Part shown: positions 1 to 60,792 of the stretch, piece by piece | How positions within the stretch are numbered: the stretch's first letter is position 1 | How the letters are laid out: each line of letters starts with the position of its first letter | NCBI GenBank assembly: GCA_963576725.1 | Contig: OY755252.1 | Span: forward strand, 26,928,722 to 26,992,721 | Length of the DNA: 64,000 nt | Direction: 5' to 3' | From: Azorinus chamasolen | Taxonomy: Eukaryota > Mollusca > Bivalvia > Cardiida > Solecurtidae | Program-made: the position numbers and the translations under genes | Notes under the pieces: generated by a model | What the model was told of the DNA's origin: nothing | Seen by the model: the letters and a program-made list of their open reading frames with translations, nothing else | Database searches by the model: none

Positions 1-936
1 TCATTATTTTATTACATGAATATTCGTGAAATAATATAGATCTGACTCTATAGTTTCTGTCACTATGATTTTGAAGAAGAAAAACACATCAGTTGAGCCA
101 TTACTTAAACTATTTGATGAGAATGGATTCTGATTCAGACGTCATTACTTATCCTGTTTTACGATGACGGGTTTGCGGTTTTATGACGTCGACGTCAATA
201 ATGACGTCACATTGTCGTATGTAATGACGAGACAACGTTGTATCCAACGAACGACGCCACGGCCTAATAATGATCAATCGGACGCATACATTTCAGATTC
301 TGAGAAGGCTAATAAAGAGGTAAGAATACAAGAACTTAGATGAATCCAAAAGTAATATGTGTACAGTGGCTATAGGGGTCCGAGGGAATGCTTCTTCTGG
401 AAAATTTAGAATTGTGTAGTTTTTAAACCATTGTGATAAATAGAGCATGTTAATGCCCAAATCAGGACAAAAGTAATAAAGATTGCTCCTGTTTGGACTA
501 TGCGGAAAAATACCATTATGCATTAAGCTATCACCCGGCTTTTAGTGTTCTTCTATATCCAGAACACCCAGTTTACGGCCGCCGAGTAAAAAAGCATAAC
601 CTCTCCTGAGGAAATAGACTAAAGGGCGTGTTGCATTGCGCAATTTATATGTAAACTCTTTTTTGCAAACATATCAGATGCCGAGATAATATTTAGGTGT
701 CTCGTCAGGATTTAATTTATTTGACACTCCACTTATGTTTTTAGATTCATTTGAAGAATAGTCCACTTTCAAATGTAAAGCAGACGACAAGTTTGCAGAC
801 CTAATTTTACTCGGCGCGAAAATTTGAAATATTACGACTGTCTTCGTTTATTTTCACCAGGTGTAGTATATCCTATCGATGTTCGTTTAGACAATGAACA
901 TCGACGGATCTTGATGTAAACTTAAACAATAAAATA
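1..936. other. Intergenic sequence without a recognised gene
   Basis: No convincing coding exon is seen. Positions 419-448 match one arm of the family D palindrome (AAACCATTGTGATAAATAG) without its partner arm, so a MITE remnant is present. A cluster of TGACGTCA-like palindromes lies at about 138-209. The rest is AT-rich and featureless to me. Confidence 0.6.
138..209. promoter_or_regulatory. Cluster of CRE-like TGACGTCA motifs
   Basis: AGACGTCATT (138-147), GACGTCGACGTCA (185-197) and TGACGTCA (202-209) fall within about 70 bp. TGACGTCA is the CREB/ATF consensus. They lie about 1.7 kb upstream of the first recognised exon of gene A, so a regulatory link is only a suggestion. The related string TGACGTCA also occurs in the 327-bp segment of array units 1 and 3. 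Confidence 0.2.
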
Positions 937-1099
937 CAGCAAAACCTCTAAATTATGTTAATTAGTTGGTATTTAGGGCAGATAGGTGTTTAAAGCAAGG
1001 TGAAAGTAAAACAGAACGCTCCTATAGGAACGTTCTGTTTTACTTCCATCTTGCTTTAAGCAGCCACCTGCCTTTAACACTAAATACTTGATGTAATTC

Positions 1100-1240
1100 T
1101 GTGACAGGCCGGGTACAGGTACTGGGTGAAAGACAGTAAGCGGTTCGGATAGCTCAGTGGTTAGAGCACTCGCCTTGTAAGTGAGGGGTCCCGGGTTCGA
1201 TCCCCGGTCTGGCTGCATGTTTTTCACCAGTCCTGTTACA
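1100..1240 (+). repeat. Left LTR of the TRIM
   Basis: The 141-bp repeat begins TGTGACAGGCC and ends TCCTGTTACA. Its outer parts are inverted repeats of each other (TGTGACAGG...ACTGGGTGAAA against TTTCACCAGTCCTGTTACA), so a stem could form that encloses the tRNA-like part at 1143-1215. Confidence 0.8.
1143..1215 (+). tRNA. tRNA-Thr(UGU)-like sequence in the left LTR
   Basis: Arm lengths are canonical. D-arm: GCTC...GAGC. Anticodon arm: CTCGC-CTTGTAA-GTGAG, giving anticodon UGU (Thr). Variable loop: GGGTC. T-arm: CCGGG-TTCGATC-CCCGG. Boxes A (TAGCTCAGTGG) and B (GGTTCGATCCC) match pol III consensus. The acceptor stem is poor (GTTCGGA against TCTGGCT: wobbles and one mismatch), and a GCA follows rather than an unpaired base alone. 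I read this as a tRNA-derived internal promoter carried by the TRIM rather than a working tRNA gene, although a tRNA scanner would probably report it. Confidence 0.55.
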
Positions 1241-1242
1241 GT

Positions 1243-1253
1243 TGGCGCCCAAC
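1243..1253 (+). other. Primer-binding site (tRNA-Lys) of the TRIM
   Basis: TGGCGCCCAAC is the reverse complement of the 3' end of animal tRNA-Lys (...GTTGGGCG plus CCA). It lies 2 bp inside the left LTR, the usual PBS position. Confidence 0.75.
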
Positions 1254-1311
1254 TTGAAAATCTGACCCTGTGCACGCCCATGATTTCTGCTGCAGATTCG
1301 GCGAGAATCTC

Positions 1312-1330
1312 AGGGAAAAAGGGGGAGTAG
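1312..1330 (+). other. Polypurine tract of the TRIM
   Basis: A run of G and A (AGGGAAAAAGGGGGAG) followed by TAG abuts the TGTGACAGG start of the right LTR, where plus-strand priming is expected. Confidence 0.7.
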
Positions 1331-1469
1331 TGTGACAGGCCGGGTACAGGTACTGGGTGAAGACAGTAAGCGGTTCGGGTAGCTCAGTGGTTAGAGCACT
1401 CGCCTTGTAAGTGAGGGGTCCCGGGTTCGATCCACGGTCTGGCTGCATGTATTTCCCAGTCCTGTTACA
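1331..1469 (+). repeat. Right LTR of the TRIM
   Basis: The 139-bp direct copy of 1100-1240 has a few substitutions and two small indels: one A lost in the GGGTGAAAG run, GGTTCGGA changed to GGTTCGGG, one mismatch in the T-stem, and a shortened TTTTCACCAG stretch. Confidence 0.8.
1373..1445 (+). tRNA. tRNA-Thr(UGU)-like sequence in the right LTR
   Basis: This is the same cloverleaf as at 1143-1215, with anticodon UGU. The T-stem carries a C-to-A change (CACGG), which breaks one pair. Box A and box B are intact. Confidence 0.5.
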
Positions 1470-1539
1470 ATTCAGTGGCCGTTATAGAGAGGTTATACTG
1501 TAATGTGTCTAAACGAGAAAACTTACCATCAATACTTTA

Positions 1540-2621: not shown

Positions 2622-5600
2622 AAATAAGACAATTAATTAGTAGCTATAATGGGTGGAGTCGGTCACAAATCTAAATCAAGTAAAATGCGTTTGTTTGTAT
2701 TTATTCTCAGAACCCACTAGGCCTGTCATCTTCACAGACACGGTGGCGGAGGAGACTGTCTCTGTCAACGTTACTGAAGAGATAGGAGATGACCATATGA
2801 ACTGGACATACACCATAGATGACAGACTCTCGCCAGGTAGTTCAGATTGTCTTAACCCTTATTCCCTACCCCTTTTCCTGCTTATCGCGATTTTTAGTTG
2901 CATTTGCGAATAGGTTAGACAAAGATTAGACACCGAATATCTCGTCGTCTCATCAAGATGCAAGCTGTCTGAGCCCCAGAGCTACAGATAAAGGTTCGTA
3001 CCCAAATACTAAAATCATTTCTCCACCAAACCCTATAATGTGACCACTATATATAGGGTTTGGTGGAGAAATAAAAGAGAATTCTTGAAAATGTTTAAAT
3101 TTTCGCATCTTATCTGGACCTCTGTATTTGATATTCTGTGAAAAGTGTCTCAAATGCTCACTCAACCCTTTACTCCATAGATATCCCTTTCTACGACTTT
3201 GCACACAGAGTAGACCAAATCAGACGGCTCCTATAGGAGCCGTCTGATCAGGATCTGCTATTTGTTGATGACATGATGTAGATATGATTCTACAGTTTCT
3301 GCCATAGCTAAAATGCACGTGTTCATGTATCACTGTAGTGAATAAACTATTTCACATTTAACCTGCTGAGAAGATTATCTTTACAACATAAGTGTTCACC
3401 TACAAACATTTCAAAATTCAACATATAATCAGTGTGTCTACCAAAATACAACCAGGGTGTCAAACAGTTTGGATCCTGATGAGACGCCGAGTTACTCGGC
3501 GTCTCATCTGGATCCAAACTGTTTGCACAGGTATACACTCATCCGCCCATAGCAGGCTTAAGGTGAATAATATGCACGTTGTCATTATTTCTTATATTTA
3601 TGGAGTAAAGGGTTAATCAAAATATTCTCAATATCGTGGTCGATTCGGCAGCATTCTAGTTTTAACAGGGTCCATGCTTATAAAACTTTTTTAGTTGAGT
3701 CTGAGTTCGTTCGCAAGCTTTTGATTGGTCGGGTTTGAGTTCTCAAGCTTTTGATTGGTCAGATTTGAGCCAAAGACTCAAATCTGACCAATCAAAAACT
3801 TGAGAACGAACACAGACTCAACTAAAAGTTTTATAAGCATGGATACAGATCAGCATATTAGCAGACATTACGTTTTTCTTACACAGCAGGATATTGATTA
3901 ACGTTTTCCAAACAAAACACGCTTTTCAATTGTTTCTACCTTATATAAATACCAGTATAGCATTCTATTGCGTTTCCATGCTGCTCGAGAATTTGTCATC
4001 AGCTTATATTCAGACGAGACACTGAGTAACTCGAAGTCTCAGCAATCAATTTTATTTTCGGATAATAGTTTCTTAAATCTTTCCTTCATATAGACGCATT
4101 TTCACGCATTCGCAAACAGAGGAAACCTAGACCAGACGGCTTCCAGACGAGCCGCCTGATCAGGGTCTGCTATGTTTGTTAATGGAATTTGATAGTCCTG
4201 TTTCTTTAGTTTCTAAAATGGCTAGTCAGTTCTACCTTCCAACCCCCTTTTCATGCTACTCGAGACTTGACAGCCATTTGTCATCATCTTGTATTCAGAC
4301 GAAACGCTGAGTAACTCGGGGTATCATCAAATATGATTTTCGATTCATATTTTCTTAACTCTTTCCGTTTATATAAACACCTTTTCACGCATTTGCAAAC
4401 AGAGAAAACCCAGATCAGACGGCTCGTAGTGGAGCCGTCTTTAGAATCTAAGCCTGCTCTGTATGCTTTTGGAATTTGATAGATGTGTTTATTTAGTTTC
4501 TAAATTGGCTACAGCGTTTTATTAGAACTAGTTTGTCCATGAATATTCAGTATGTATTGAAATTTGGATTACATATAGAGCAGGGAAATGGTTAAATGCT
4601 TGAGTGTAAGGAGTTTTCTGCATAACTATCATCTTGTATTTAGCCTCCACATGTCCTATAGACTGACATTGATGCTAATTTGAACGTCGGGTTTTAGACA
4701 GTATTTGGAAGGATTGATAACATTTTGGAAACCCTAAACTTGCCACATATTTTTATCACTCTGCCCTCTTTGAATATAAATTAGGCAATTCGTTACAAAA
4801 ATATACAGGATATGTAGAAATGATTTTCCTAGACAAAAGCATTGGGCATCGAGGCATGTATTTCCATGGCAAACAGTGCAGACCCAAATGAGAGAGCTCC
4901 TATATAGGAGCTCTCTCATCTGGGTCTACACTGTTTGCAAATGCAACTATAGATGTGACTGGCACGCTATATGTCAATACTTCCGCGACGCTTCTGTTTC
5001 AGAGAACTATATGGAGACATGTCGTTACTATGACGACGCGATCAATAACAGGCGGGATATGCTGAAGGCTCTGTATGTGCTTGGGGACATGCTCGTCACG
5101 AATGAATTAGAAGGGGACAGGGACACGTGGGTCCAGTACACAGAAACGGTATGAACAAGTACAAATGTTGCTTGGTAGACTCGCTGGGTATTTAATCCTT
5201 TACCTCGTGATATATTCAAACAAAAAATCCATTAATCCATGAATATTTATAAACTAAATGTGCAGTATGACCAATGAACCGGAATTGCTTGGCCATTTCA
5301 GAAACATTAGAATCGGAACGTGTGAATCTCAAAATTTCAAAGTTCGCAAGTGTAATTCTACTAATGGGGTGTATGGAGAACTTGGAAGATACATGTACCC
5401 TCAATATGCATCAATATTTGTACAAATTGTTAGATATTGGTGTAAAATTGTCACTTCAGATCATATGTTAATTAAACCATTGTATAATTTGCTATTACAT
5501 TGTAAATGAATGTGAAAATGATATCGTGAACGGGGCAAATAACATGAAACATCTACTTGAAGGTCATAGACTTGCATATGCATGGTATAACCCATTCTTT

Positions 5601-38600: not shown

Positions 38601-41428
38601 CCTTACAATGCTGAGTGATGTTTCGTTTGCAACAATTGACGTCTGCTTCAATTCTTCAATAAACTTTCTTTCATTTTATGCAAAAATATGATCAAGATGA
38701 CAAACAGTTTGGATCCTGATGAGACGCAGAATTATGTGGCCTCTCATCTGGATCCAAACTGTTTGCATATGTAATCACAGTTTCGCCGCTAGCGTGCAAA
38801 GAGTTAAGCGTATGACCTCTAGAGATTTTAGCATGATGTAACAGTTGCCCTGCACTACTGACCACCAGTGCGCTGTAACCTTGATACTGTAAAGGACGTA
38901 AAGAACAGAAGAAGTCTATTTAACCCTTAATTTCCCCATATAAACTTGTTTTCATGCATCTGCAAATAGATTCCACCCAGATTAGACAGCTCGCTCCCAT
39001 AGATTCAGGGTCTGCTCTGTTGCTAATGGATCCACCTTCCATATTTCATTATAAATATTTTGTAAGATTCCGGAACCAGATTGTAAACCAAGCACTGCAC
39101 ATGCGCGTATTCTCTTAGGGGGGTTCCCGCTAGGTAGCGCTCGTGCAATAGGGTTTTCCGCCATAGCAAAAGCCGAAACCCTAAAAAGACATGTCACTTT
39201 ATTCGTATAAGAATTATAAGCTTGCATTTGGCTTAGACAATTATTTAAACATCTTGTATAAAACATATGAGCCACTTTTTTGTGATATACAGTAAAACCT
39301 CTCTATAACGACCACTAAATTATGTTAATTAGTTGGTATTTTGGACAGGTGGTTGCTTAAAACAAGGTGAAGGTAAAACAGAACGCTCCTATAGGAGCGT
39401 TCTGTTTTACTTTCACCTTGCTTTAAGCATCCACCTGCCTTTCACCTTGCTTTAAGCATCCACCTGCCTTTAACACAAAATATTTGATGTAATTTAGTGG
39501 TCGTTATAGAGAGGTTTTACTGTACTCATGTAAATAAGTCCGATTCGTAATGATAAATGTTCATAAATGTTCATATTCATTCATTTATTTCAGGAATTTA
39601 TGCTTAACAGTAACATATAGTCACGTGACACTTGTTTAGTTAATATGTATACAGTAAAACACCGCTAATGCGACCAACTAAAAGAGGTATAATTCTGGGC
39701 GCTAGATGCAGGTGGTTGCTTAATGCAGGGCAAAAGTAATGCCGAAAGCTCCTAGAGGAGCTTTATGCATTACTTTTGCCCTGCATTAAGCAACCACCTG
39801 CTTATAAAGACACCCGTGTTTATTCATTAAGTGGTCGCATTATAGGGGTTCTATTGTATTTGTATGATTATAAATTGTACCAGAGTATGTAAAAAAAAAA
39901 AAAACATTTACTTGGTTCTAATATTCTGACGTCATTATTCGTCAAAATATGACATTAACCTTTCAGTGCATTAAACAAGTCACTGGAGACATTTGCAAAC
40001 AGTGTATACCAAGATGAGAGGGTTCAGGAAGGAGCAATCTCATTGGGGTCTACACTGTTTATCGTGTCACATGTTTCTGTAACCCTTTCCTCCATAAATA
40101 CGCCTTTTGCGCCTCTGTAAAAGTCACTTTTAGAAACCATTGTGATAAATAGTGCAGTTGCTCCTATTGAGCAAATGCTCTATTTATCACAATGGTTTCA
40201 AAACTACTCAATTCTAAAATTCTCCATTTCTCTAGCAAATTCTCCTTTTCAGTAGTTTTATTCAAAGAGGTTGGATCTAAAAATAGCCTGTGAGGGAAAG
40301 GATTAAATTAAAATAAATATTCCTACAATTCACGGTACACTTGACATGTTTGAATTTTTAATACAGTGGAATCTGTCCAGAGCGGCCATCAAAAAGAGGT
40401 CTAATTATGAGACTGTTAGGCAGGTGATAGCTTAATGCAAGTCAATGATGTATTGCAGAACTTTCTGCATTACTTTTGCCCTGTGATAAGCAACGACATG
40501 CTTGTTAAGACTAAATGAATGGCATATTGCGGTCGTGTGATACACAGACTATCGCATTCGGATTTATATCTTACTAGTTGTATTAGATTCGTTGACTAAG
40601 AAGATGTTATATCTTATTATTGTATTCAACCCCTTCAATAACAGTGACAACAATGAATATTTAGAATAATTGTTAATCTAGCACATGGACACAGGCAATG
40701 TTGGCTAAGACATTAACTGTAGAATTATAATATTATCAATATTACACCATAAGCAAACAGAGCATATCCTCATTAGACGGCTCCTGCGGGGTTTGATCTG
40801 GGTCTTCCCCTGTTTGCAAAGTCATACAATAGCGTTAAAGTCCAATATCGTACATGACACACCGAACCAAGTTAACCCATTTGCCCCCACGGTCCCATAT
40901 ATGGGACGTAGGCAAACAGTGTAGACTCTGATCAGACGCCGCATAATGCGGCGTCTAATCAGAGTATATACTGTTTGCTGATAGGAAATTCAATATAAAA
41001 CAAAACAAAAAATTTAGACCAGACATCCCTTAGATAAAAGATAGACTAATCCAATATATAAGCATGGAAGAATCCACTGGGAGCAAATGGGTTAATGAAA
41101 GCAGCGTAATCATGAAGATACAAACAACATACGTCAACAGTTCCATGCAGTTCCAGCTTGTTTTGTATGTAGCTACTCTACCTTTTGTTCGTTTTAGTGG
41201 GCGAAAGAAGAACAAGAGTGGAAAGAAAAGTGTAAAGCGAGCCACGCCTACTTCGAGAAAACAAGGCGCACACTTGGACATGCACCCGATTCATTACTCA
41301 AGCGGGCAGCACGCATTGTACAGACAGCCAGGCAAGGGGCGCAGTTGGCGATAAAAGAGGCATGCCCGTGTTTCTTCAGGTCAAAAGAAATCGAATTAAT
41401 CGAATTTCCTAGACCTGAAGTTTCATGA
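1904..41428 (+). CDS. Gene A: unrecognised four-exon protein with a ~36-kb third intron
   Basis: Exons 1904-2480, 2711-2836, 5003-5148 and 41198-41428 join in one frame: phase 1 at the first two junctions and phase 0 at the third, all with GT/AG borders. The sum is 1080 nt, or 359 residues plus stop. The N-terminal ~190 residues are basic, rich in Lys/Ser/Asn and carry PPGF motifs. Exon 2 is acidic with two N-x-T sites. Exons 3-4 look helical and charged, ending in a Lys-rich stretch with a CPCFF motif. I do not recognise the family. The 5' end is open: the reading frame continues to about 1874 and an acceptor CGCAG lies at 1891-1895, so the first exon here may be internal. Further exons in the long intron cannot be excluded. 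The intron holds the 2.18-kb tandem array. Confidence 0.5.
2562..2619 (+). repeat. (CT)n microsatellite
   Basis: About 29 uninterrupted CT dinucleotides, in the intron between gene A exons 1 and 2, close to the exon 2 acceptor. Confidence 0.95.
2711..2836 (+). CDS. Gene A, second recognised exon
   Basis: A 126-nt exon between TTTATTCTCAG and CCAG|GTAGTT. It enters and leaves in phase 1. It encodes 42 residues including VNVTEEIGDD and NWTYTIDD, acidic with two potential N-glycosylation sites. It follows the CT microsatellite by about 90 bp. Confidence 0.55.
2976..3130. mobile_element. Foldback element, family G
   Basis: An inverted repeat with arms ATTTCTCCACCAAACCCTATA and its complement spans 3017-3074. 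Flanks (AGCTACAGATAAAGG on the left, GAAAATGTTTAAATTT on the right) recur in a second, more diverged copy at 42015-42205, so this is a repeated element. Confidence 0.6.
3163..3616. mobile_element. TTAA family A' MITE with a nested family C palindrome
   Basis: The left end reads CAACCCTTTACTCCATAG and the right end CTTATATTTATGGAGTAAAGGGTTAA (split here: GGAGTAAAGGGTTAA closes at 3616). Its own palindrome lies at about 3205-3265 with centre GGCTCCTATAGGAGCC. A second palindrome of family C (3461-3525) is nested in its right half. Confidence 0.65.
3461..3525. repeat. Family C palindrome
   Basis: CAAACAGTTTGGATCCTGAT and its near-complement meet at GACGCCGAGTTACTCGGCGTC. The arms differ at one site (CCTGAT against CCAGAT). 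Close copies: 38701-38765, 58427-58491, 59931-59993 and 60478-60541. Confidence 0.85.
3671..3843. repeat. Long imperfect inverted repeat (foldback)
   Basis: TCCATGCTTATAAAACTTTT at the left has its complement ending at 3843. The left arm carries an internal tandem duplication of about 30 bp (two AAGCTTTTGATTGGTC stretches) that the right arm has once. The central loop is only about 7 bp. No clear target duplication is seen. Confidence 0.75.
4090..4250. mobile_element. Degenerate TTAA family A MITE
   Basis: The inner flank TTCACGCATTCGCAAACAG, a damaged palindrome (4117-4180) and the right-hand flank GGAATTTGATAG...TTTCTAAAATGGCTA match family A. The outer ends are lost. Confidence 0.6.
4355..4595. 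mobile_element. TTAA family A MITE
   Basis: TTAACTCTTTCCGTTTATAT at the left and GCAGGGAAATGGTTAA at the right bound 241 bp, with an imperfect AAACAG palindrome (about 4397-4470). TTAA ends with no coding capacity suggest a piggyBac-type non-autonomous element. Confidence 0.7.
4866..4943. repeat. Foldback core palindrome next to gene A exon 3
   Basis: GGCAAACAGTGCAGACCC...GGGTCTACACTGTTTGC folds around AGCTCCTATATAGGAGCT. Both arms read CCA here, an exception to the usual arm asymmetry. It ends about 60 bp before the exon 3 acceptor. Confidence 0.75.
5003..5148 (+). CDS. Gene A, third recognised exon
   Basis: A 146-nt exon after the strong acceptor CTTCTGTTTCAG and ending ACG|GTATGA in phase 0. 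It encodes ENYMETCRYYDDAINNRR and a further helical stretch to DTWVQYTET. The frame stays open upstream (CDWHAICQYFRDASVS), but an acceptor at 4957 would be in the wrong phase, so the downstream acceptor is preferred. A foldback MITE ends about 60 bp upstream. Confidence 0.55.
5149..6065 (+). other. Unique intron sequence
   Basis: The start of gene A's long intron. No coding exon in the needed phase 0, no palindrome and no recognisable repeat is seen. Confidence 0.5.
6066..6185. mobile_element. Left end of a family A MITE at the array border
   Basis: TTAACCCTTTCCCTGTTCTA and the following ~110 bp match the family A copy inside every array unit, including its otherwise missing TTAACCC end. 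The homology breaks off in an A/G-rich stretch (6175-6200), just before the first array unit. The array may have arisen next to this element. Confidence 0.6.
7124..7450. repeat. 327-bp segment unique to array units 1 and 3
   Basis: Present here and at 11817-12143, and cleanly absent from every other unit (AACTTGATT joins CCTGTTC directly). It contains TGACGTCATATATGACG and a foldback (7317-7425) with arms CTTTTAAGATCACATG. No target duplication is evident, so loss from the other units is the simpler reading. Confidence 0.85.
7317..7425. repeat. Foldback within the 327-bp segment
   Basis: CTTTTAAGATCACATGTTCC and its complement, with an inner pair GAAAATGTTATTAAGC / GCTTAATGACATTTTC. Also present in unit 3. 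Confidence 0.75.
8970..9046 (+). ncRNA. tRNA-like pol III box A/B sequence, repeated in units 2-15
   Basis: Box A TGGCCGAGGGG (8983-8993) is the form typical of tRNA-Leu/Ser; box B GGTTCGAATCC (9026-9036) matches consensus. The anticodon and acceptor stems do not fold well, so this is not a functional tRNA. It resembles a tRNA-derived SINE head. Fourteen copies begin at 8970, 11152, 13663, 15845, 18027, 20209, 22381, 24563, 26745, 28917, 31089, 33261, 35433 and 37602. Unit 1 lacks it. Transcription by pol III is possible but unproven. Confidence 0.6.
10131..10324. mobile_element. TA-B MITE inside the array unit (reference copy)
   Basis: CAGTAAAACCCCTCTTAACC after a TA and GAGGGGTTTTACCG before a TA bound 194 bp with the internal GGCAGGTGG...CCACCTG palindrome. 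A copy is present in units 1-14; those of units 13 and 14 have lost 10 bp. Confidence 0.75.
10319..10552 (-). pseudogene. Cys-loop receptor-like exon fragment (one of 14 copies)
   Basis: On the minus strand, an acceptor-like TTATTACAG (before 10539) opens a frame of about 73 residues. Residues 44-65 fit the Cys-loop ligand-gated channel signature: Cys44, thirteen residues, Cys58, six residues, Trp65, with DITMFP after Cys44. NGTIS upstream fits the receptor's ligand-binding domain. In the canonical loop FP sits two residues later, so the match is divergent. The frame runs into the TA-B MITE end (10131-10324), where it stops. No other receptor exon is seen. Copies end at 8370, 10552, 13063, 15245, 17427, 19609, 21781, 23963, 26145, 28317, 30489, 32661, 34833 and 37005. 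It is probably a dead gene fragment copied with the array; identity reflects recent amplification, not selection. Confidence 0.5.
10838..13348. repeat. Array unit 3 (2511 bp)
   Basis: Has both the tRNA-like sequence (from 11152, with box B damaged to GGTGCGAATCC) and the 327-bp segment (11817-12143), plus one extra CA. The only unit with both features. Confidence 0.9.
13349..15530. repeat. Array unit 4 (2182 bp)
   Basis: tRNA-like sequence from 13663. No 327-bp segment. Near-identical to the following units. Confidence 0.9.
15531..17712. repeat. Array unit 5 (2182 bp)
   Basis: tRNA-like sequence from 15845. Carries the G variant (CCTGGTTAG) in its third palindrome, shared with units 3, 7 and 8. 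Confidence 0.9.
17713..19894. repeat. Array unit 6 (2182 bp)
   Basis: tRNA-like sequence from 18027. The A variant (CCTGATTAG) in the third palindrome. Confidence 0.9.
19895..22066. repeat. Array unit 7 (2172 bp)
   Basis: tRNA-like sequence from 20209. Ten bases of the AT stretch right after it are missing, as in units 10-12. G variant in the third palindrome. Confidence 0.9.
22067..24248. repeat. Array unit 8 (2182 bp)
   Basis: tRNA-like sequence from 22381. Private changes: TTTTGTGTCC at about 23980 and GACACACCG at about 24164. Confidence 0.9.
24249..26430. repeat. Array unit 9 (2182 bp)
   Basis: tRNA-like sequence from 24563. A variant in the third palindrome; private TACCCGGG at about 26393. 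Confidence 0.9.
26431..28602. repeat. Array unit 10 (2172 bp)
   Basis: tRNA-like sequence from 26745 followed by the 10-bp AT deletion; first of three consecutive units with it. Confidence 0.9.
28603..30774. repeat. Array unit 11 (2172 bp)
   Basis: tRNA-like sequence from 28917 followed by the 10-bp AT deletion. Private change ACAAAACCAATAG at about 29497. Confidence 0.9.
30775..32946. repeat. Array unit 12 (2172 bp)
   Basis: tRNA-like sequence from 31089 followed by the 10-bp AT deletion; last of the three-unit run. Confidence 0.9.
32947..35118. repeat. Array unit 13 (2172 bp)
   Basis: tRNA-like sequence from 33261 with the full AT stretch. A different 10-bp deletion lies at about 34461, inside the TA-B MITE (GATAAGAATTTTAGGCAGG), shared only with unit 14. 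Confidence 0.9.
35119..37287. repeat. Array unit 14 (2169 bp)
   Basis: tRNA-like sequence from 35433. Shares the MITE deletion of unit 13 (at about 36633), lacks 3 bp near 37247, and has the only residue change in the exon-like fragment (Gln34 to Lys). Confidence 0.9.
37288..38598. repeat. Array unit 15 (partial, edge unit)
   Basis: tRNA-like sequence from 37602. Homology to the unit ends after GCAACTTTAGATTA at about 38598, before the TA-B MITE and exon-like fragment. An inverted duplication lies at 38326-38372. The unit has more private changes than the inner units. Confidence 0.85.
38326..38372. repeat. Short inverted duplication at the right array edge
   Basis: ATTTCCACTTTTCATGTTTC is followed by the near-complement from the normal unit sequence. 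Other units contain only the second arm, so a template-switch style inverted duplication arose here. Confidence 0.7.
38599..39289. other. Post-array intron sequence with MITE remnants
   Basis: A family C palindrome (38701-38765) and a degenerate family A MITE (about 38921-39065: TTTAACCCTTAATTTCCCC...CTTCCATATTTCATTA). The rest shows no recognised feature. Confidence 0.6.
38701..38765. repeat. Family C palindrome
   Basis: CAAACAGTTTGGATCCTGAT...ATCTGGATCCAAACTGTTTG; the centre is decayed relative to other copies. Arms differ CCT against CCA. Confidence 0.8.
39290..39522. mobile_element. TA-B MITE
   Basis: CAGTAAAACCTCTCTATAAC after TA and GAGAGGTTTTACTG before TA, 233 bp. The palindromic core is centred on GCTCCTATAGGAGC. 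The right half has a tandem repeat of CTTTCACCTTGCTTTAAGCA. Confidence 0.85.
39652..39856. mobile_element. TA-B MITE, variant ends
   Basis: CAGTAAAACACCGCTAATGC after TA, and TAGGGGTTCTATTG before TA. The core arms CAGGTGGTTGCTTAATGCAG are perfectly complementary around CTCCTAGAGGAG. Confidence 0.8.
39891..39904 (+). repeat. Poly(A) run
   Basis: Fourteen consecutive A. Confidence 0.9.
39994..40065. repeat. AAACAG-type palindrome remnant
   Basis: GCAAACAGTGTATACC...GGTCTACACTGTTTA with decayed inner arms; directly adjoins the next MITE. Confidence 0.65.
40079..40306. mobile_element. TTAA family D MITE
   Basis: GTAACCCTTTCCTCCATAAA at the left, GAGGGAAAGGATTAA at the right; core AAACCATTGTGATAAATAG folds with its complement ending CACAATGGTTTC. 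Confidence 0.7.
40364..40548. mobile_element. Degenerate TA-B MITE
   Basis: Left end CAGTGGAATCTGTCCAGAGC after TA and the core GGCAGGTGATAGCTTAATGC are clear; the right end is decayed. Confidence 0.55.
40745..40819. repeat. AAACAG-type palindrome remnant
   Basis: GCAAACAGAGCATATCCT...GGTCTTCCCCTGTTTGC; arms differ CCT against CCA. Confidence 0.65.
40872..41095. mobile_element. TTAA family F MITE, just upstream of gene A terminal exon
   Basis: TTAACCCATTTGCCCCCA and its complement TGGGAGCAAATGGGTTAA bound 224 bp. The core CAAACAGTGTAGAC...ACTGTTTG is perfectly symmetric at the usual mismatch site. The other copy (44217-44421) is in the opposite orientation. It ends 102 bp before the terminal exon acceptor. 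Confidence 0.8.
41198..41428 (+). CDS. Gene A, terminal exon
   Basis: The acceptor CTTTTGTTCGTTTTAG is followed in phase 0 by 76 codons and a TGA. The product starts WAKEEQEWKEKCKASHAYF and continues as a charged, probably helical segment with KEACPCFFRSK near the end. The phase matches the donor at 5148 exactly. An overlapping frame from 41064 to 41354 is rejected because this frame has the better splice context and protein-like composition. Confidence 0.6.
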   Translation, partial: WAKEEQEWKEKCKASHAYFEKTRRTLGHAPDSLLKRAARIVQTARQGAQLAIKEACPCFFRSKEIELIEFPRPEVS

Positions 41429-43366: not shown

Positions 43367-43408
43367 TAAGGTAAGAAATAATGATATCGTGGATTACCTA
43401 TTGTTTTA

Positions 43409-43587
43409 CAGTAAACCCTCTCTATAACGGCCACTAAACTATGTTAATTAGTTGGTATTTAGGGCAGGTGGATGCTTAAAGCCTATATGCGCGTTCTGTT
43501 TTACTTTCACATTGCTTTAAGCAGCCACCTGCCATTAACACAAAATACCTGATGTAATTTAGTGGCCGTTATAGAGAGGTTTTACTG
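43409..43587. mobile_element. TA-B MITE with deleted core arm
   Basis: CAGTAAACCCTCTCTATAAC after TA and GAGAGGTTTTACTG before TA. The left core arm is shortened (GATGCTTAAAGCC joins GCGTTCTG). Confidence 0.8.
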
Positions 43588-43696
43588 TATATTGTTGTAT
43601 GAACACAAGACGTTTGTCAGTGGCAGAAAATGTAGAATCAGATCTAAGCCGTATTTATAGTTGTGAAGTAATGAGTAAAAAGATCGAGGGGACTGC

Positions 43697-43898
43697 TTAA
43701 CCTATTTCCTCATATTGACGACTTTGTGAAACCATTGTGATAAATAGAGCATTTGCTCTAGGAGCAAATGCTTTATTTATCACAATGATTTCAAATTACA
43801 AAATTCTAAAAAAGAACCTTTCGCTAGTTAATGCTCCTTTTCGGTAGATTTATTCAAAGATATAGTATCTAAAAATAGCCTATGAGGTAATGCGTTAA
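43697..43898. mobile_element. TTAA family D MITE
   Basis: TTAACCTATTTCCTCATA...TATGAGGTAATGCGTTAA with core GAAACCATTGTGATAAATAG and its complement around GCTCTAGGAGC. Confidence 0.75.
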
Positions 43899-43950
43899 AA
43901 CAGAACGTACTTAAACCGTGGCCTGCTGAATTCGACCATACGCTCGTTTG

Positions 43951-44018
43951 CAAACAGCTAGGATCGAGATAAGACGCCGTGTATCTCGGTGTCTCCTCAG
44001 GATCCAAGCTGTTTGACC
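43951..44018. repeat. Family C palindrome
   Basis: GCAAACAGCTAGGATCGAGA...TCAGGATCCAAGCTGTTTG around GACGCCGTGTATCTCGGTGTC; arm bases A and T at the asymmetric site. Confidence 0.75.
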
Positions 44019-44216
44019 CTTAGTCAATAAGTTCTCAATAATATGAACGAATCGGAAGTAATTAAGAAGCGATCAGTCCAGAAGTTTCAGCTAGTATCTG
44101 TCTTCAGCTGGCTGAGCGTTAGACACGTTAAGAACTGTTTAATTGTCGCCCTGCATTCACTACCTTCTGTTTCAATCCTTTCTTTGATGACTATTTGTGC
44201 AAGGCGTTGCCTACTT

Positions 44217-45342: not shown

Positions 45343-45379
45343 ACCACGGAATGTGTTAGTGGATAAAATACTAAAACTA

Positions 45380-45583
45380 CAGTAAAACCTCTCTATAACG
45401 GACACTAAATTACATTAAGTATTTTGTGTTAAAGGCAGGTGGCTGTTTAAAGCAAGGTGAAAGTAAAACAGAACGCTCCTATGGGAGCGTTCTGTTTTAC
45501 TTTCACCTTGCTTTAAACAGCCACCTGCCCTAAATACCAACTAATTAACACAATTTAGTGGCCGTTATAGAGAGGTTTTACTG
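45380..45583. mobile_element. TA-B MITE (best copy)
   Basis: CAGTAAAACCTCTCTATAAC after TA and GAGAGGTTTTACTG before TA, 204 bp; nearly one continuous palindrome around CGCTCCTATGGGAGCG. Confidence 0.9.
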
Positions 45584-45641
45584 TATATTATATGTTAACA
45601 GAGCACGTTTGTAAATGTTAACTAGGGTCACTAATAAAGCA

Positions 45642-48842: not shown

Positions 48843-51279
48843 CTGAAAAGTAGACAAATTATAGTAGAACATGTCCTAAGCTGTCATTTAAATTATTAAA
48901 CATAAGAGTCTTACAAAACAGGTGGTTGGTTAATGCAGAGCATCATCATAGGAGCTTTCTGCATTACTTTTGACCTCTATGAAGCTACCGCCTGTCTTAC
49001 AGACCCACAATTAGACCTCTTTTTATGGTCGCTGAAGACAGGTTTCATTGTATATTACAAACCAGAGATAACTGTCATTTCACCACCAAAGCCTATATTT
49101 GGCTATTTTTCCATTCTCAGTCAGATCAATTTATGTGGGGGGATTGGTAGTCCTAGAAGATCAGTATAGTATGACCAGATGTTACCTGTCAGTCGAATCA
49201 GTGTATAGCGTATGGTATGATCAAGTGTGAGTCAGTCGGGTCGGTAACGTATAGTATGTCCAGATGTGAGTTACCTGTTAGTCGAATCGGTGTATGACGC
49301 ATGGTACGTCCTTAGAACATGTAATTTGACCAGATCTGAGCTATCTGTCAGTCGGATCGGTAACGTATAGTATGTCCAGATGTGAGTTACCTGCTAGTCG
49401 AATCGGTGTATGACGCATAGTACGTCCTTAGAACATGTAGTATGACCAGACGTGAGTTGCCTGCCAGTCGAATCGGTGTACAAACTATAGTACATGTATG
49501 TCCATATGTGAGTTACCTGCCAGTCGAATCGATGTATGACGCATAGTGTGTCCTTTGAACATGTAGTTTGACCAGATGTGAGTTACCTGCCAGTTACCTG
49601 CCAGTCGAATCAGCGTATAGTATGTCCATATGTGAGTTACCTGCCAGTCGAATCAGCGTATAGTATGTCCATATAACATGTAGTATGACCAGATGTGAGT
49701 TACCTGCCAGTCGAATCGGTGTACAACCATATGTGAGTTACCTGCCAGTCGAATCGGTGTACAACCATATGTGAGTTACCTGTCAGTCGATTCGGCGTAT
49801 GACGTATAGTATGTCCATATAACATGTAGTATGACCAGATGTGAGTTACATGCCAGTCGAATCGGTGTACACATATAGTATGTCCATATGTGAGATACCT
49901 GTCAGTCGAATCGGTGTATAACGTATAGTACGACCAGATGCAAGTTACCTGCCAGTCGAATAAGTGTATAACGTATAATATGCCCATATAACATACATGT
50001 ATAGTATGACCAGATGTGAGTCACCTGTCAGTCGAGTCAGTGTATGATCAGGTGTGAATTATCTGACAGTCTGATCGGTGTATAACGCATCGTATGATCA
50101 TATAACATGAAGTATGACCAGATGTTATTTACTTGTCAGTCGGATCGGTGTATAACGCATCGTATGGTCATATGACATGTAGTATGGCCAGATGTTATTT
50201 ACTTGTCAGTCGGATCGGTGTATAACGCATCGTATGGTCATATAACATATAGTATTTCCAGATGTTATTTACTTGTCAGTCGGATCGGTGTATAACGTAT
50301 CGTATGATCATATAACATGTAGTATGACCAGATGTGAGTTACCTGTCAGTCAAATCAGTGTATAGTATTGCCAGATGTGAGTTATCTGTCAGTCGAATCA
50401 GTATATAACGTATAGTGTGTTCATCTGCCGGTACACTCAAGCCCCATATCCTAACTTCAGATCTCCCTTTTCCGAAGATGTTTCATTGTTCCTACGATAA
50501 CACATTACTTAAAGAAACGAACGAGAATGTACATCGTCTGATGTTTAAGAAATGGTTGCCCCTCAACGCTGAGGTTCGAATCCCCGCTTGGCATTTGGAT
50601 TTTTCATGTAAGGATACCTTCAACTGGCTTGCGGTAGGTCGATGGTTCTACCTGGGTGTTCTATGCACGGGGCGAAGCAATTTGTTTCGTGTACGGAAAC
50701 CCCTATGGACTTTCTCAACCTGTAATTGGCTAGAAGTGGCGATATGATTGAAATACGTAAAGATACGTAAAACCTGTACAAAAGTAACAAACAAACGAAC
50801 GGACGAACGAGCAAGTGAACGAACGAACGGACGAACGAATTAACAAACAAACAAACAACAAACGAATTAACAAACACACAAACAAAACAAAACAAAACAA
50901 AACAAACAAAACAAAACAAAACAAAAACACATTACTACAAGTGCCAACGAACAAGTGTGTACATGTACCTCTTTGGTTATTTAAGAAATGGTATGCCGGA
51001 ATGACGGACTGGGGATCTAGGAGGTGAAGCTTGACAAACAAAATATTCATCTCCGTGTTGAAGTCCTCCTCAGTGGCCTGGCCGCGGATGATTCTCTGTA
51101 GCCAGTGCATTGTCCATGAAGGTTCCATAATACTATCGATGATTTTCTCCGCCCATTCCTGACTGTAAAATAGAAGTTAAACATTTGGATGTCAATTCAG
51201 TCCAGTTGTGTTTGCCATATACAACGAGGATACACAGTAGAACCTATCCTAAGCAACGATCATTTTATTATTATTATTA

Positions 51280-51462: not shown

Positions 51463-54329
51463 TATCATCATCATCATCATTATCATCATCATCATCACCA
51501 TCATTTGTATTTTCATATTACTAATATGAAAGTCCAGTTTAGAGAGGTGTTTACTGTATATGAAACACATTGATGTAATAATAAGGCAACATGCGTAACC
51601 CGGTGAGGTGACCTTTATTAGTTATACGTGTATTTAGATTTACATATACCATGTCGACTAATGTGTTTTTATCAGAGGCAATAATCATACAGCTGCAATA
51701 TTGTCATCTGTAATTACGTATACAATGAAAGTGGCATTCTATATTAATGACGCTGGCATTTATGCCTTTGAATAGGGAACGAATGCAATGGCCTTTGTAA
51801 ACAGGGTAGACCCATATCAGAGGTCTTCTTGGGGAAGTATCTGATCAAGGTCTGCACTGTTGGTCAGTCAAAGTCCTCTTTCAAAATATTCCCTTTCTAA
51901 CTGAATGAACAGTCACGCTATTGTTTAACAGTGATTGGACATTCTACTTTGCAAAATCATGTAAATGGATAAAGGGCCTAAACTTAGAAGCCATTTTATT
52001 GGCCGCTGCTGGGAGGTGTCACTGTATATTTTTAACTGTTAGGGTCTACACTATTTGCCATTCAGAGTCCTCTCACAGTTCATACTCTTTGCTACTATAT
52101 TGTTAAACAGTGATGAACTATTTCTGTTTTAACATTCAACATTTAATTTGTTAATCCTCTGAACTCAGGACAGGCATGTGCTCTCATTTGCAAACAGCGT
52201 AGACTTAGATCAGAGGGCTCTCAATCAGCAAGTTTACGCATTTCATATCGAGTGGACTCTATAGTTAAACACTGATGGGCTATCCCATTCTGATAGTTCG
52301 GTGTTGAAAGGGTTTACACTCCTAAAACAGTTTGCCGTTTTATTTGCCGATGTAGCGGTACTGTAGCAACTTACCCGTCATCGTCGACAAAGTCTTGCAG
52401 ACTAACATCCAACTTTTTGTTTTTCACCACGTCTGGATACAGTTTTGTATACAAGGAAAATCCTGTAATGAAATCAAGCGAAATATTTTACTCTCTGCTT
52501 CTCGCTAGGATTCAAAATGTATGTTACTAAGTCAATAGTTTCCCAAAAATCAAACAAATGAGTGAATGGAAACGAAGAAAATGTTGTGGCAGACCAGCCA
52601 GCATTTTGTCACAGCGTGTTTTGTTCGTTTCAAACTTCCAACATAATGGGTATTGAAAGAGGCTGAGAAACAAGCAAGTACGGTTTAGACTATTCTTGAC
52701 CTTTATCCGATATACATATGCAATAACAAAACACCTCTATACCGGACATTAAAAATAGTATCAATTTTCGTCGGTTAATGGCAGCTTAATGCAGGATGGA
52801 GGTCATGCTGAAAGTTAACAAATGATTTTCGTCCTGTGTCCACTGCCCTGTTTGCGTATGGAATGATACAGACATTGTTCTACACTTTTTAACAGGGAAA
52901 AAAACACATTTCCTTCTCCGATACATGTAAAATAATTAGATAATTAGTATTAACGAGGTCATTATTTCTTATATAAAAAAGTGAAGAAATTGGTTAATTT
53001 CGAGACTGAAATTTAAATCAAGACAAAAAATTGTAGATTTCTGGTGAAATACTTCACAGAAAACCCATGAGCATGTTTATACATACGTGTACATGATGTT
53101 TATACATACTTATACATGTGTTTCGTTGATGAAGAACGGCGTGATATACAGCAGAGCATGTCCCCAGCAGCCAGTCATTTATTGAACATAGGACTCTTAA
53201 GAAGCAGGTGGTTGCTTAATGCATGGAAAAGTAATACAGAAACCTTCTAATTGTGCGTCTGTACGGCAGGTGGTAACTTAATACAGGTCGAAAGTACTAC
53301 AGAAACCTCCTATAGGTGCTTTCTGCATTACTTTTGACCTGTATTAAGCAACCACGTGATGGTCAGCACTACTGTTCAATAAATGAATGGCCGCTTAGGA
53401 CAGGTTAGATACTGTATGTCAAACCTTTCGCAATGGACGCGACATCTGATCAAAGCTAAAACTGCCATTCAATACTGATGGTGCATGTAATTTGTTCATG
53501 TAATTACTGTATGAATATCAATACGGGGAAGGTTTACAATAGTATATGATACAAGAAGATTTATCCGTGGCAAAAACTGTAGATTGAGATCTATATCATT
53601 TCAGAAGCAAACAGAGCGGAGTCTTATCAACAGGTTCCTACAAGAGCCGTTTGATATGGGTTTATGCTGTTCACAAAATCGTTTAAATGTGTGAAATTCA
53701 ATGCACACCTTAGCTAGGCGTCAGGTTTACACCGTTGTCGCTTATCTATATCTACACTGTTTGGAAACACACAAGAGCACAGCTATTCCCATGCTTAGGT
53801 TCACTTGTAAACCAACACTTTTGAATGAAATGCATGTCAAGGGGTACCATACAGCATGGATTAGGTATTCAGAAATATTTCACTTACCTAATTTCTTCCA
53901 ATGCACACTTTCGTATATCTCACGGAGTGCGTCTTCCAAATTGTTTCTTTCTATTGTACAACTAAATTTGAACTCATCATTACACTGTGAAATAGCCTTT
54001 GCAACCATGGCAACAGCTAGTCTATCAACCGGTAATCCTCGTAGGTCATCCTCTTGAAGTTTGGTACTAATCGTCACTTCCGGAAAGAAGAGTCTGCGCA
54101 CTGAAGGTTGAAGCTGTATACAATTCATTAACAATTCTCGTGATGCTTCAACCACCATATCGACGCCATTTTGAAACGGTGTTAAACTTAGTAACAAATC
54201 CAGTGTCAATTTAGACTTATTTTGTTGCTTTGGAGACCTTTTAGAAAGGTCTTCTCTCTTTTTTACGACAGTTCTTTTCACTGTTTTGAAGGAAGACGCT
54301 CTGCTAACTTCCGTTGGTCGCATTTTCAT
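48568..54329 (-). CDS. Gene B: unrecognised four-exon protein
   Basis: Minus-strand exons 54329-53888, 52462-52375, 51162-50969 and 48842-48568 join with GT/AG borders and matching phases (1, 2, 1). The sum is 999 nt, 332 residues plus stop. The start ATG at 54329 has ACC before it and an in-frame TAA 9 bases upstream, so it is well supported. The N-terminal ~45 residues are basic. The rest looks helical and globular (LLLSLTPFQNGVDMVVEASR, then QEWAEKIIDSIMEPSWTMHW, then a last exon rich in acidic residues). No transmembrane segment or signal peptide is seen. I do not recognise the family. The last exon ends at TGA 48568, but a weak donor AG|GTGCTC 20 bp earlier would allow a further exon, and no AATAAA lies close downstream. 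Confidence 0.65.
48913..49052. mobile_element. Degenerate TA-B MITE in gene B
   Basis: CAGGTGGTTGGTTAATGCAG and the inverse ending GCTACCGCCTGTC form the core; the right flank ends GACAGGTTTCATTGTA. It lies in gene B intron 3. Confidence 0.55.
49165..50425. repeat. Minisatellite, ~50-bp unit, in gene B intron 3
   Basis: About 20 degenerate copies of a ~50-bp motif (GTATGACCAGATGTGAGTTA, then CCTGCCAGTCGAATCGGTGT and ATAACGTATA), some paired with a ~20-bp spacer (GTATGTCCATATAACATGTA) into a ~70-bp or ~120-bp higher-order unit. On gene B's sense strand most copies contain CAGGTAACTC, a splice-donor-like string. Confidence 0.85.
50540..50932 (+). mobile_element. MetaSINE-like SINE
   Basis: Box B-like GGTTCGAATCC at 50573 ends a degraded tRNA-like head. 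The body has AACTGGCTTGCGGTAGGTCG and ATGGTTCTACC, which I recall as the conserved central domain of the MetaSINE superfamily in molluscs, then GTGGCGATATGA and an A-rich tail ACGTAAAACC running into an AACAA microsatellite. Family assignment is from memory and the 5' end is uncertain. Confidence 0.5.
50783..50932 (+). repeat. (AACAAACG / AACAA)n microsatellite at the SINE tail
   Basis: ACAAACAAACGAACGGACGA grades into AACAAAACAAAACA runs. It lies just downstream, in gene B sense, of the exon 3 donor. Confidence 0.85.
50969..51162 (-). CDS. Gene B exon 3
   Basis: A 194-nt exon between TCTATTTTACAG and CAAAGAG|GTACATG, phase 2 to phase 1. It encodes 64 full codons from QEWAEKIIDS to AYHFLNNQR. 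The acceptor is 100 bp from a long trinucleotide microsatellite. Confidence 0.7.
51264..51510. repeat. (ATT)n-(ATC)n compound microsatellite
   Basis: TTATTATTATT runs shift to TCATCATCATC runs over about 245 bp, in gene B intron 2. The frames across it are spurious poly-Ile/Met/Leu. Confidence 0.95.
51795..51865. repeat. AAACAG-type palindrome
   Basis: GTAAACAGGGTAGACCCATA...TGATCAAGGTCTGCACTGTT, arms A and T at the asymmetric site; gene B intron 2. Confidence 0.7.
52151..52320. mobile_element. Degenerate TTAA family H MITE
   Basis: TTAATCCTCTGAACTC, GCAAACAGCGTAGACTTAGA and the flank AACACTGATGGGCTATCCCA...GTTGAAAGGGTTT recur near 58738-58870 and 60067-60270. Confidence 0.5.
52375..52462 (-). 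CDS. Gene B exon 2
   Basis: An 88-nt exon between CATTACAG and GACGG|GTAAGT, entering in phase 1 and leaving in phase 2. It encodes FSLYTKLYPDVVKNKKLD and an acidic DFVDDD end. Confidence 0.7.
53160..53418. mobile_element. Tandem-duplicated TA-B remnant
   Basis: Core arms occur three times (GCAGGTGGTTGCTTAATGCA at 53201, GGCAGGTGGTAACTTAATAC at 53263, and the inverse ending GCAACCACGTG at 53356), so one arm is duplicated. The right flank ends GACAGGTTAGATACTGTA. Confidence 0.6.
53607..53672. repeat. AAACAG-type palindrome
   Basis: GCAAACAGAGCGGAGTCTTA...TGATATGGGTTTATGCTGTT, arms T and A; gene B intron 1. Confidence 0.6.
53888..54329 (-). CDS. Gene B exon 1 (coding part)
   Basis: A 442-nt exon, ATG to TTAG|GTAAGTG (phase 1). 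It encodes 147 residues, beginning MKMRPTEVSRASS and ending HWKKL plus a split Gly. A 5' UTR acceptor TTCTCTCTCCAG lies at about 54399-54410, so a non-coding leader exon upstream is likely. Confidence 0.7.
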
Positions 54330-54450
54330 GGTTTTGCATTAGGCAGGTAGGGGAAATAGTGGATTCTGTCAGACGGTCATCTCGAGTTGTCTTTATACCT
54401 GGAGAGAGAATGAGAGTAGTTGTCAGCTTCATGTCATACATGGTAATGTA

Positions 54451-58383: not shown

Positions 58384-58598
58384 TTAACCCTTTCGCTGCC
58401 AATGCCGGATCTGTGATTGCCTATGCAAACAGTTTGGATCCAGATGAGACGCCGAGTAACTCGGCGTCTCATCAGGATCCAAATCGTTTGTTACTGTTAC
58501 TATGTTTTTGAAACAAAAATGAAGAAAATCAAAATAATGAAAATTTGTAGCAGACGACAAAGTGAGCAGACGACAGAGTTTGGCAGCGAAAGGGTTAA
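58384..58598. mobile_element. TTAA family C MITE
   Basis: TTAACCCTTTCGCTGCCA and TGGCAGCGAAAGGGTTAA bound 215 bp around the family C palindrome (58427-58491). This copy gives the full extent of the family. Confidence 0.85.
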
Positions 58599-58611
58599 GA
58601 GACCGATGGGA

Positions 58612-60433: not shown

Positions 60434-60681
60434 TTAACCCTGTCGCTGATAATGCCGGATCTGTGATTACCTATGCAAACAGTTTGGATCCAGATGAGAC
60501 GCCGAGTAACTCGGCGTCTCATCAGGATCCAAACTGTTTGTTACTGTTACTATGTTTTTGAAACAAAAATGAAGAAAATCAAAAGAATGAAAATTTGTTG
60601 CAGACGACAAAGTTAGCAGACGACAGAGTTTGGCAGACGACAAAGTTAGCAGACGACAAAGTTTGGCAGCGAAAGGGTTAA
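60434..60681. mobile_element. TTAA family C MITE with expanded right flank
   Basis: TTAACCCTGTCGCTGATAAT...GGCAGCGAAAGGGTTAA. Core as in 58427-58491. The right flank motif GCAGACGACAAAGTT is repeated four times; the 58384 copy has two. Confidence 0.8.
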
Positions 60682-60719
60682 GGTTATCGTAAATATTCAT
60701 ATTTAAAATAAAGTGTAAC

Positions 60720-60792
60720 ATGACAAACAGTGCAGACCCCGATGGGAGACTCTTCTAGGAGCCCTCTCGTCTGGGTTTATACTGTTTGCAAA
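60720..60792. repeat. AAACAG-type palindrome
   Basis: GACAAACAGTGCAGACCCCG...GTCTGGGTTTATACTGTTTG, arms C and A, centre CTTCTAGGAG. Confidence 0.7.

Follow-up and report, generated by a model that had tools for sequence, protein, structure and literature searches.

An element of the TRIM type occupies positions 1100-1469 (370 bp) of the window, by which we mean the whole 64-kb stretch of DNA that was analysed. Its features are listed in Table 1. Both LTRs start with TGTGACAGG and end with CCTGTTACA. In their alignment, 136 of 141 columns are identical, and the remaining columns comprise one transition, two transversions, and two gaps (K2P 0.022). The primer-binding site (PBS), TGGCGCCCAAC, occurs once in the window, compared with a mean of 0.01 occurrences in 100 shuffles. 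The primer that matches this site is presumably tRNA-Lys. The polypurine tract stops three bases ahead of the 3' LTR, and the bases in between are TAG. The direct LTRs with TG...CA ends, the PBS at a 2-bp offset, the polypurine tract, and the 90-bp interior had been proposed earlier from inspection of the letters (the sequence-only reading), and all of them were found in place. The single long frame that crosses the interior, on the minus strand at 976-1383, has no Pfam match. There is no second copy of the element within the 64-kb window, where the remaining matches are only 12-16 bases long.

Table 1. Features of the TRIM-type element and its insertion site (positions in the window)
Feature	Position	Strand	Basis
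Palindromic MITE-like repeat hosting the TRIM, interrupted by 1100-1473	935-1502	.	repeat matches; outer ends by eye
5' target site duplication, ATTC	1096-1099	.	sequence; empty sites
5' LTR, TG...CA, 141 bp	1100-1240	+	sequence and alignment
tRNA-Thr(TGT)-like sequence, 5' LTR	1143-1216	+	ARAGORN; Rfam RF00005, 53.7 bits
Box A, TAGCTCAGTGG, 5' LTR	1150-1160	+	motif match
Box B, GGTTCGATCCC, 5' LTR	1194-1204	+	motif match
T5 run, candidate pol III terminator, 4 bases past the tRNA-like end	1220-1224	+	sequence
Interior, 90 bp	1241-1330	+	sequence
PBS, TGGCGCCCAAC, 11 bases, 2 bases past the 5' LTR	1243-1253	+	sequence and shuffles
Polypurine tract, AGGGAAAAAGGGGGAG, 16 purines	1312-1327	+	sequence
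3' LTR, TG...CA, 139 bp	1331-1469	+	sequence and alignment
tRNA-Thr(TGT)-like sequence, 3' LTR	1373-1446	+	ARAGORN; Rfam RF00005, 42.7 bits
Box A, TAGCTCAGTGG, 3' LTR	1380-1390	+	motif match
Box B-like, GGTTCGATCCA, 3' LTR, last base off	1424-1434	+	motif match
3' target site duplication, ATTC	1470-1473	.	sequence; empty sites

Each LTR contains a tRNA-like sequence. ARAGORN called only two tRNAs in the window, one per LTR, and called none in 2000 dinucleotide shuffles of 1100-1469. Both Rfam scores lie above the gathering score of RF00005, which is 29. Judged by profile, the tRNA-like part is a tRNA. It includes segments that we take to be box A and box B. The box A segments of the two LTRs are identical; in box B, the 3' LTR departs at the last base. 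The sequence-only reading had described box A/B-bearing tRNA-Thr(UGU)-like folds in both LTRs, with a tRNA profile as a check. ARAGORN and the Rfam model both bear this out, with the 3' box B one base off and with single-sequence folds of the tRNA-like parts that are no more stable than those of shuffles (z 0.98 and 0.60). For the 5' LTR minus its last base (140 bases), the fold has a z of -1.70, and 14 of 200 shuffles are equally stable.

It may be asked whether the LTR holds a working tRNA-Thr gene that has been spread by the element. The D, anticodon, and T stems of the 5' copy are all paired, and the T5 run stands behind them as it would behind a tRNA gene. Kojima 2024 (PMC10886601) also reports that tRNA-Thr can be encoded by seven bivalve families. 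However, both acceptor stems are poor. In the ARAGORN drawing, the acceptor stem of the 5' copy has three Watson-Crick pairs, three G-U pairs, and one mismatch, and that of the 3' copy has two Watson-Crick pairs, four G-U pairs, and one mismatch. One pair of the T stem is broken in the 3' copy, and the folds of both copies do no better than shuffles. Because of the poor acceptor stem, the tRNA-like part is unlikely to function as a tRNA or to be a working tRNA gene, and the spread of such a gene by the element is very improbable.

The element lies within a palindromic MITE-like repeat. Its left flank is a palindrome with arms at 951-1024 and 1025-1098 that are 78% complementary. In an empty-site test, the left and right flanks were joined after one ATTC and compared with the window. 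An empty palindromic repeat at 45378-45558 (matched as 45558-45378) agrees with the joined flanks in 167 of 181 bases, with no gap across the junction. In all, three loci (39288-39524, 43406-43589, and 45378-45585) give six gap-free matches that span the junction. A palindromic repeat can match in either direction at one locus, and 45405-45585 and 45378-45558 are one locus. The target bases are ATTT in five of the six matches and GTTT in the sixth, compared with ATTC at the TRIM site. The target base thus differed by a point change, and the 4-bp duplication is genuine. These empty sites in the window prove a TRIM insertion with a 4-bp target duplication, and the ATTC duplication seen in the sequence-only reading is confirmed by the flanks as well.

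The palindromic MITE-like family is present at 935-1502, 39288-39524, 43406-43589, and 45378-45585. The MITE-like hairpin gives matches to microRNA models that stay below threshold, namely mir-7131 (43.3 bits, threshold 74) and mir-5928 (37.4 bits, threshold 59).

A relative of the element was found at the protein level. The minus-strand open frame at 976-1383 was compared with 5.77 billion proteins, and one match emerged from 21 candidates. This match, P0001, is 89 amino acids long and is encoded on a 578-base contig. Over 1231-1329, 28 of 33 residues are alike. Most likely, the similarity mirrors similarity of the DNA, as this locus is not known to make a protein. P0001 follows the order LTR piece, interior, LTR piece, as the element does. 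Its residues allow box A and box B at one place each, where the alignment predicts them. They are incompatible with the 11-base PBS, which means that P0001 has a different primer site. A loose primer-site pattern, TGGNNCCAA, is permitted by the residues, and the primer site of P0001 might fit another tRNA. P0001 keeps most of the interior while its primer site differs, a combination that may point to a change of primer among related elements.

The shared LTR-interior-LTR order of P0001 also bears on whether a pair of ordinary tRNA-derived SINEs, or of tRNA genes, simply lies 230 bp apart by chance. Such an arrangement would agree with the recognition of both repeats as tRNA. The repeats, however, extend well past the tRNA part to TG...CA ends, and the interior recurs between the LTR pieces of P0001, which argues against a chance pair. 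Furthermore, a single 4-bp duplication encloses the whole insert, and the joined flanks match empty sites. The single duplication and the empty sites together rule out independent SINEs, and we give a chance pair of SINEs or tRNA genes practically no credence.

Further searches included viral and prokaryote collections. A protein search with another frame of the element gave no candidate. A pattern of the LTR ends retrieved ten stretches from viral contigs, and the best match in each covered 19-26 bases at the LTR start. These stretches were attributed to chance, since the other matches were shorter and scattered and none spanned the whole LTR and interior. Patterns of the tRNA part retrieved nothing from viral contigs or genome contigs. 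In a translated search (A2), 46 stretches from viral contigs and 54 from genome contigs fitted the pattern, and none was confirmed by tblastn. The viral and prokaryote collections thus yielded no confirmed relative.

The features described above correspond to Helenus. As set out in Kojima 2024 (PMC10886601), Helenus occurs in fungi, plants, and animals, among them bivalves, and 51 families are found in pteriomorphian bivalves. Helenus elements are short TRIMs of 311-1263 bp that lack coding capacity. Their LTRs include a tRNA-like sequence that has boxes A and B, and they possess a PBS and a polypurine tract. The duplications are 4 bp in animals, Lys is among the primers in bivalves, and seven bivalve Helenus families are able to encode tRNA-Thr (PMC10886601). 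A 2026 meeting report restates the Helenus finding (PMC12859917). The element agrees with this description in each of the features compared. As to a multi-copy family with solo LTRs, the analysis yielded no second copy within the 64-kb window and one relative, P0001. It is a short TRIM within the reported length range, and its one long frame has no Pfam match. The PBS follows the 5' LTR and the polypurine tract precedes the 3' LTR. The LTRs have tRNA-derived sequence with boxes A and B, the 3' box B being one base off, and ATTC lies on both sides of an insertion for which empty sites exist. In a comparison by described features rather than by family sequences, no difference from Helenus was established.

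Other known TRIMs share some of these features. The plant element Cassandra is a TRIM whose LTRs contain the sequence of a pol III-type gene, but this sequence is 5S rRNA in place of tRNA, and Cassandra is described as pol III-transcribed (PMC10886601). Ajax of nemerteans also has a small-RNA promoter sequence in the LTR of a TRIM; unlike the present element, it uses partial 5S rRNA and makes a 5-bp target site duplication (PMC10886601). The bivalve biv-TRIM (Satovic 2019, PMC6934838) resembles the element in its short interior (77-80 bp) and its polypurine tract. However, its TDRs are 202-218 bp long, its polypurine tract is GGGGAGA in most cases, it has no unambiguous PBS, and the accessible text mentions no tRNA in the TDR. 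With LTRs of 141 and 139 bp and the tract AGGGAAAAAGGGGGAG, the element does not fit biv-TRIM, as compared with the published figures rather than the sequence (PMC6934838).

The LTRs, PBS, polypurine tract, and target duplication, together with the empty sites, the order of P0001, and the match with bivalve Helenus, support identification of the element as a non-autonomous LTR retrotransposon, an insertion of a Helenus-kind TRIM, to which we assign a probability of about 0.9. Some observations count against this explanation: P0001 lacks the 11-base PBS, the 3' box B is one base off, a T5 run lies in the 5' LTR, and no autonomous helper element was found in the present analysis. The sequence-only reading had regarded the element as a Cassandra-like hybrid of SINE and LTR retrotransposon. 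A TRIM with tRNA-derived boxes A and B in both LTRs and the parallel with Cassandra both stand. The kind of element is not new, being already known as Helenus since 2024 (PMC10886601). The locus offers a clean TRIM example with a borrowed tRNA promoter sequence, in which the insertion is proved within the same window.

The RNA of an LTR element starts in the 5' LTR and ends in the 3' LTR, past the point that matches its start. In the element, an internal pol III promoter is, or once was, most likely provided by the tRNA-like part of the LTR. Transcription would begin just upstream of the tRNA-like sequence, at about 1131-1142, and finish at a T-run of the 3' LTR, which would make the tRNA-like part the repeated R region. 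The presence of boxes A and B and the absence of TATAA, AATAAA, and ATTAAA from the plus strand of the element favour pol III. The poor acceptor stem beside kept promoter boxes also counts for a predicted promoter role. We regard this pol III step as reasonably likely. Kojima's proposed group TRIMp3 embodies the idea of a pol III promoter, and transcription by pol III is left unproved in the accessible text of that paper (PMC10886601).

The remaining steps of the proposed cycle would depend on a helper. Most likely, an autonomous Gypsy-type element supplied in trans the proteins that copied the present one. The first DNA strand would be primed by tRNA-Lys at the PBS, and the second would be begun at the polypurine tract. 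Integrase would then have placed the product into the palindromic repeat, generating the 4-bp duplication. The same 11 bases are given as the PBS of Drosophila gypsy in a study that deleted and mutated that site (PMC6541305), and this identity fits a Gypsy-type helper. A primer role of tRNA-Lys would also agree with the presence of Lys on Kojima's bivalve list (PMC10886601).

The position of the T5 run complicates transcription by pol III. It is the only run of at least four Ts on the plus strand of the element. At the corresponding site the 3' LTR has TATTT, and no further T4 is met before 1673, beyond the end of the element. Pol III should therefore mostly halt in the 5' LTR after about 90 bases, ahead of the interior. 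With T5 in the 5' LTR only, this copy should yield mainly short RNA, and read-through would continue into the flank. Such a placement of the run speaks against pol III transcribing this copy efficiently over its full length. The T5 of the 5' LTR may have arisen later, or read-through may be a regular step of the cycle, two readings that a single copy does not separate.

It is conceivable, if rather doubtful, that the LTR has its own pol III promoter and terminator and produces mostly short tRNA-like RNAs, with leaky read-through giving the genomic RNA. If so, the T-run would be a built-in brake on copying and would serve a second time, in the 3' LTR, to set the 3' end. The residues of P0001 permit T5 in one LTR piece and T4 in the other, which keeps such a brake possible, although the 3' LTR of this copy is without the run. 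How pol III passes the T-run of the 5' LTR and yet ends in the 3' LTR is a question raised by these data, on which nothing was found in the accessible text of Kojima 2024 (PMC10886601).

The same element could instead be transcribed by pol II, and the tRNA-like part would then be a SINE relic, left by an insertion into the LTR and without a present role. The T5 run right after the 5' tRNA-like part, which should shorten pol III transcripts, speaks for this alternative. It accords poorly with boxes A and B of the 5' LTR, which are intact even though the acceptor stem is poor, and with a plus strand devoid of the TATAA, AATAAA, and ATTAAA motifs. We consider a pol II-transcribed element with a relic somewhat unlikely and prefer the pol III promoter.

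Other parts of the window contain further repeats and one exon-like frame. A tandem array at 7449-38315 has a unit of 2182 bp and includes 14 full units if the reference is counted, and the 13 besides it are 98.9-99.9% identical to that reference unit. About 325 bp of extra sequence lies between 11814 and 12142, and partial pieces occur from 6077 on. The longest stop-to-stop frame of the unit is 86 amino acids, and the unit has no Rfam family at the gathering score. Pfam searches with 14 ORFs of the window gave three weak matches (ACT_9, DUF2398, and Palm_thioest), none at the curated cut-off. The exon-like ORF is located at 53883-54338 on the minus strand and encodes 152 amino acids. It has no PDB match, and its single Pfam match (ACT_9) is under the cut-off. 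Its homologues P0002 and P0003 show 58% identity over 97-98% of its length. Dispersed repeats at 3350-3549, 43831-44019, 58387-58611, and 60470-60754 contain frames reading NSLDPDETPSYSASHLDPNCL or similar. Complex tandem repeats at 49233-50407 have periods of 11 to 146 bp and consist of variants of GTGAGTTACCTGCCAGTCGAATC.
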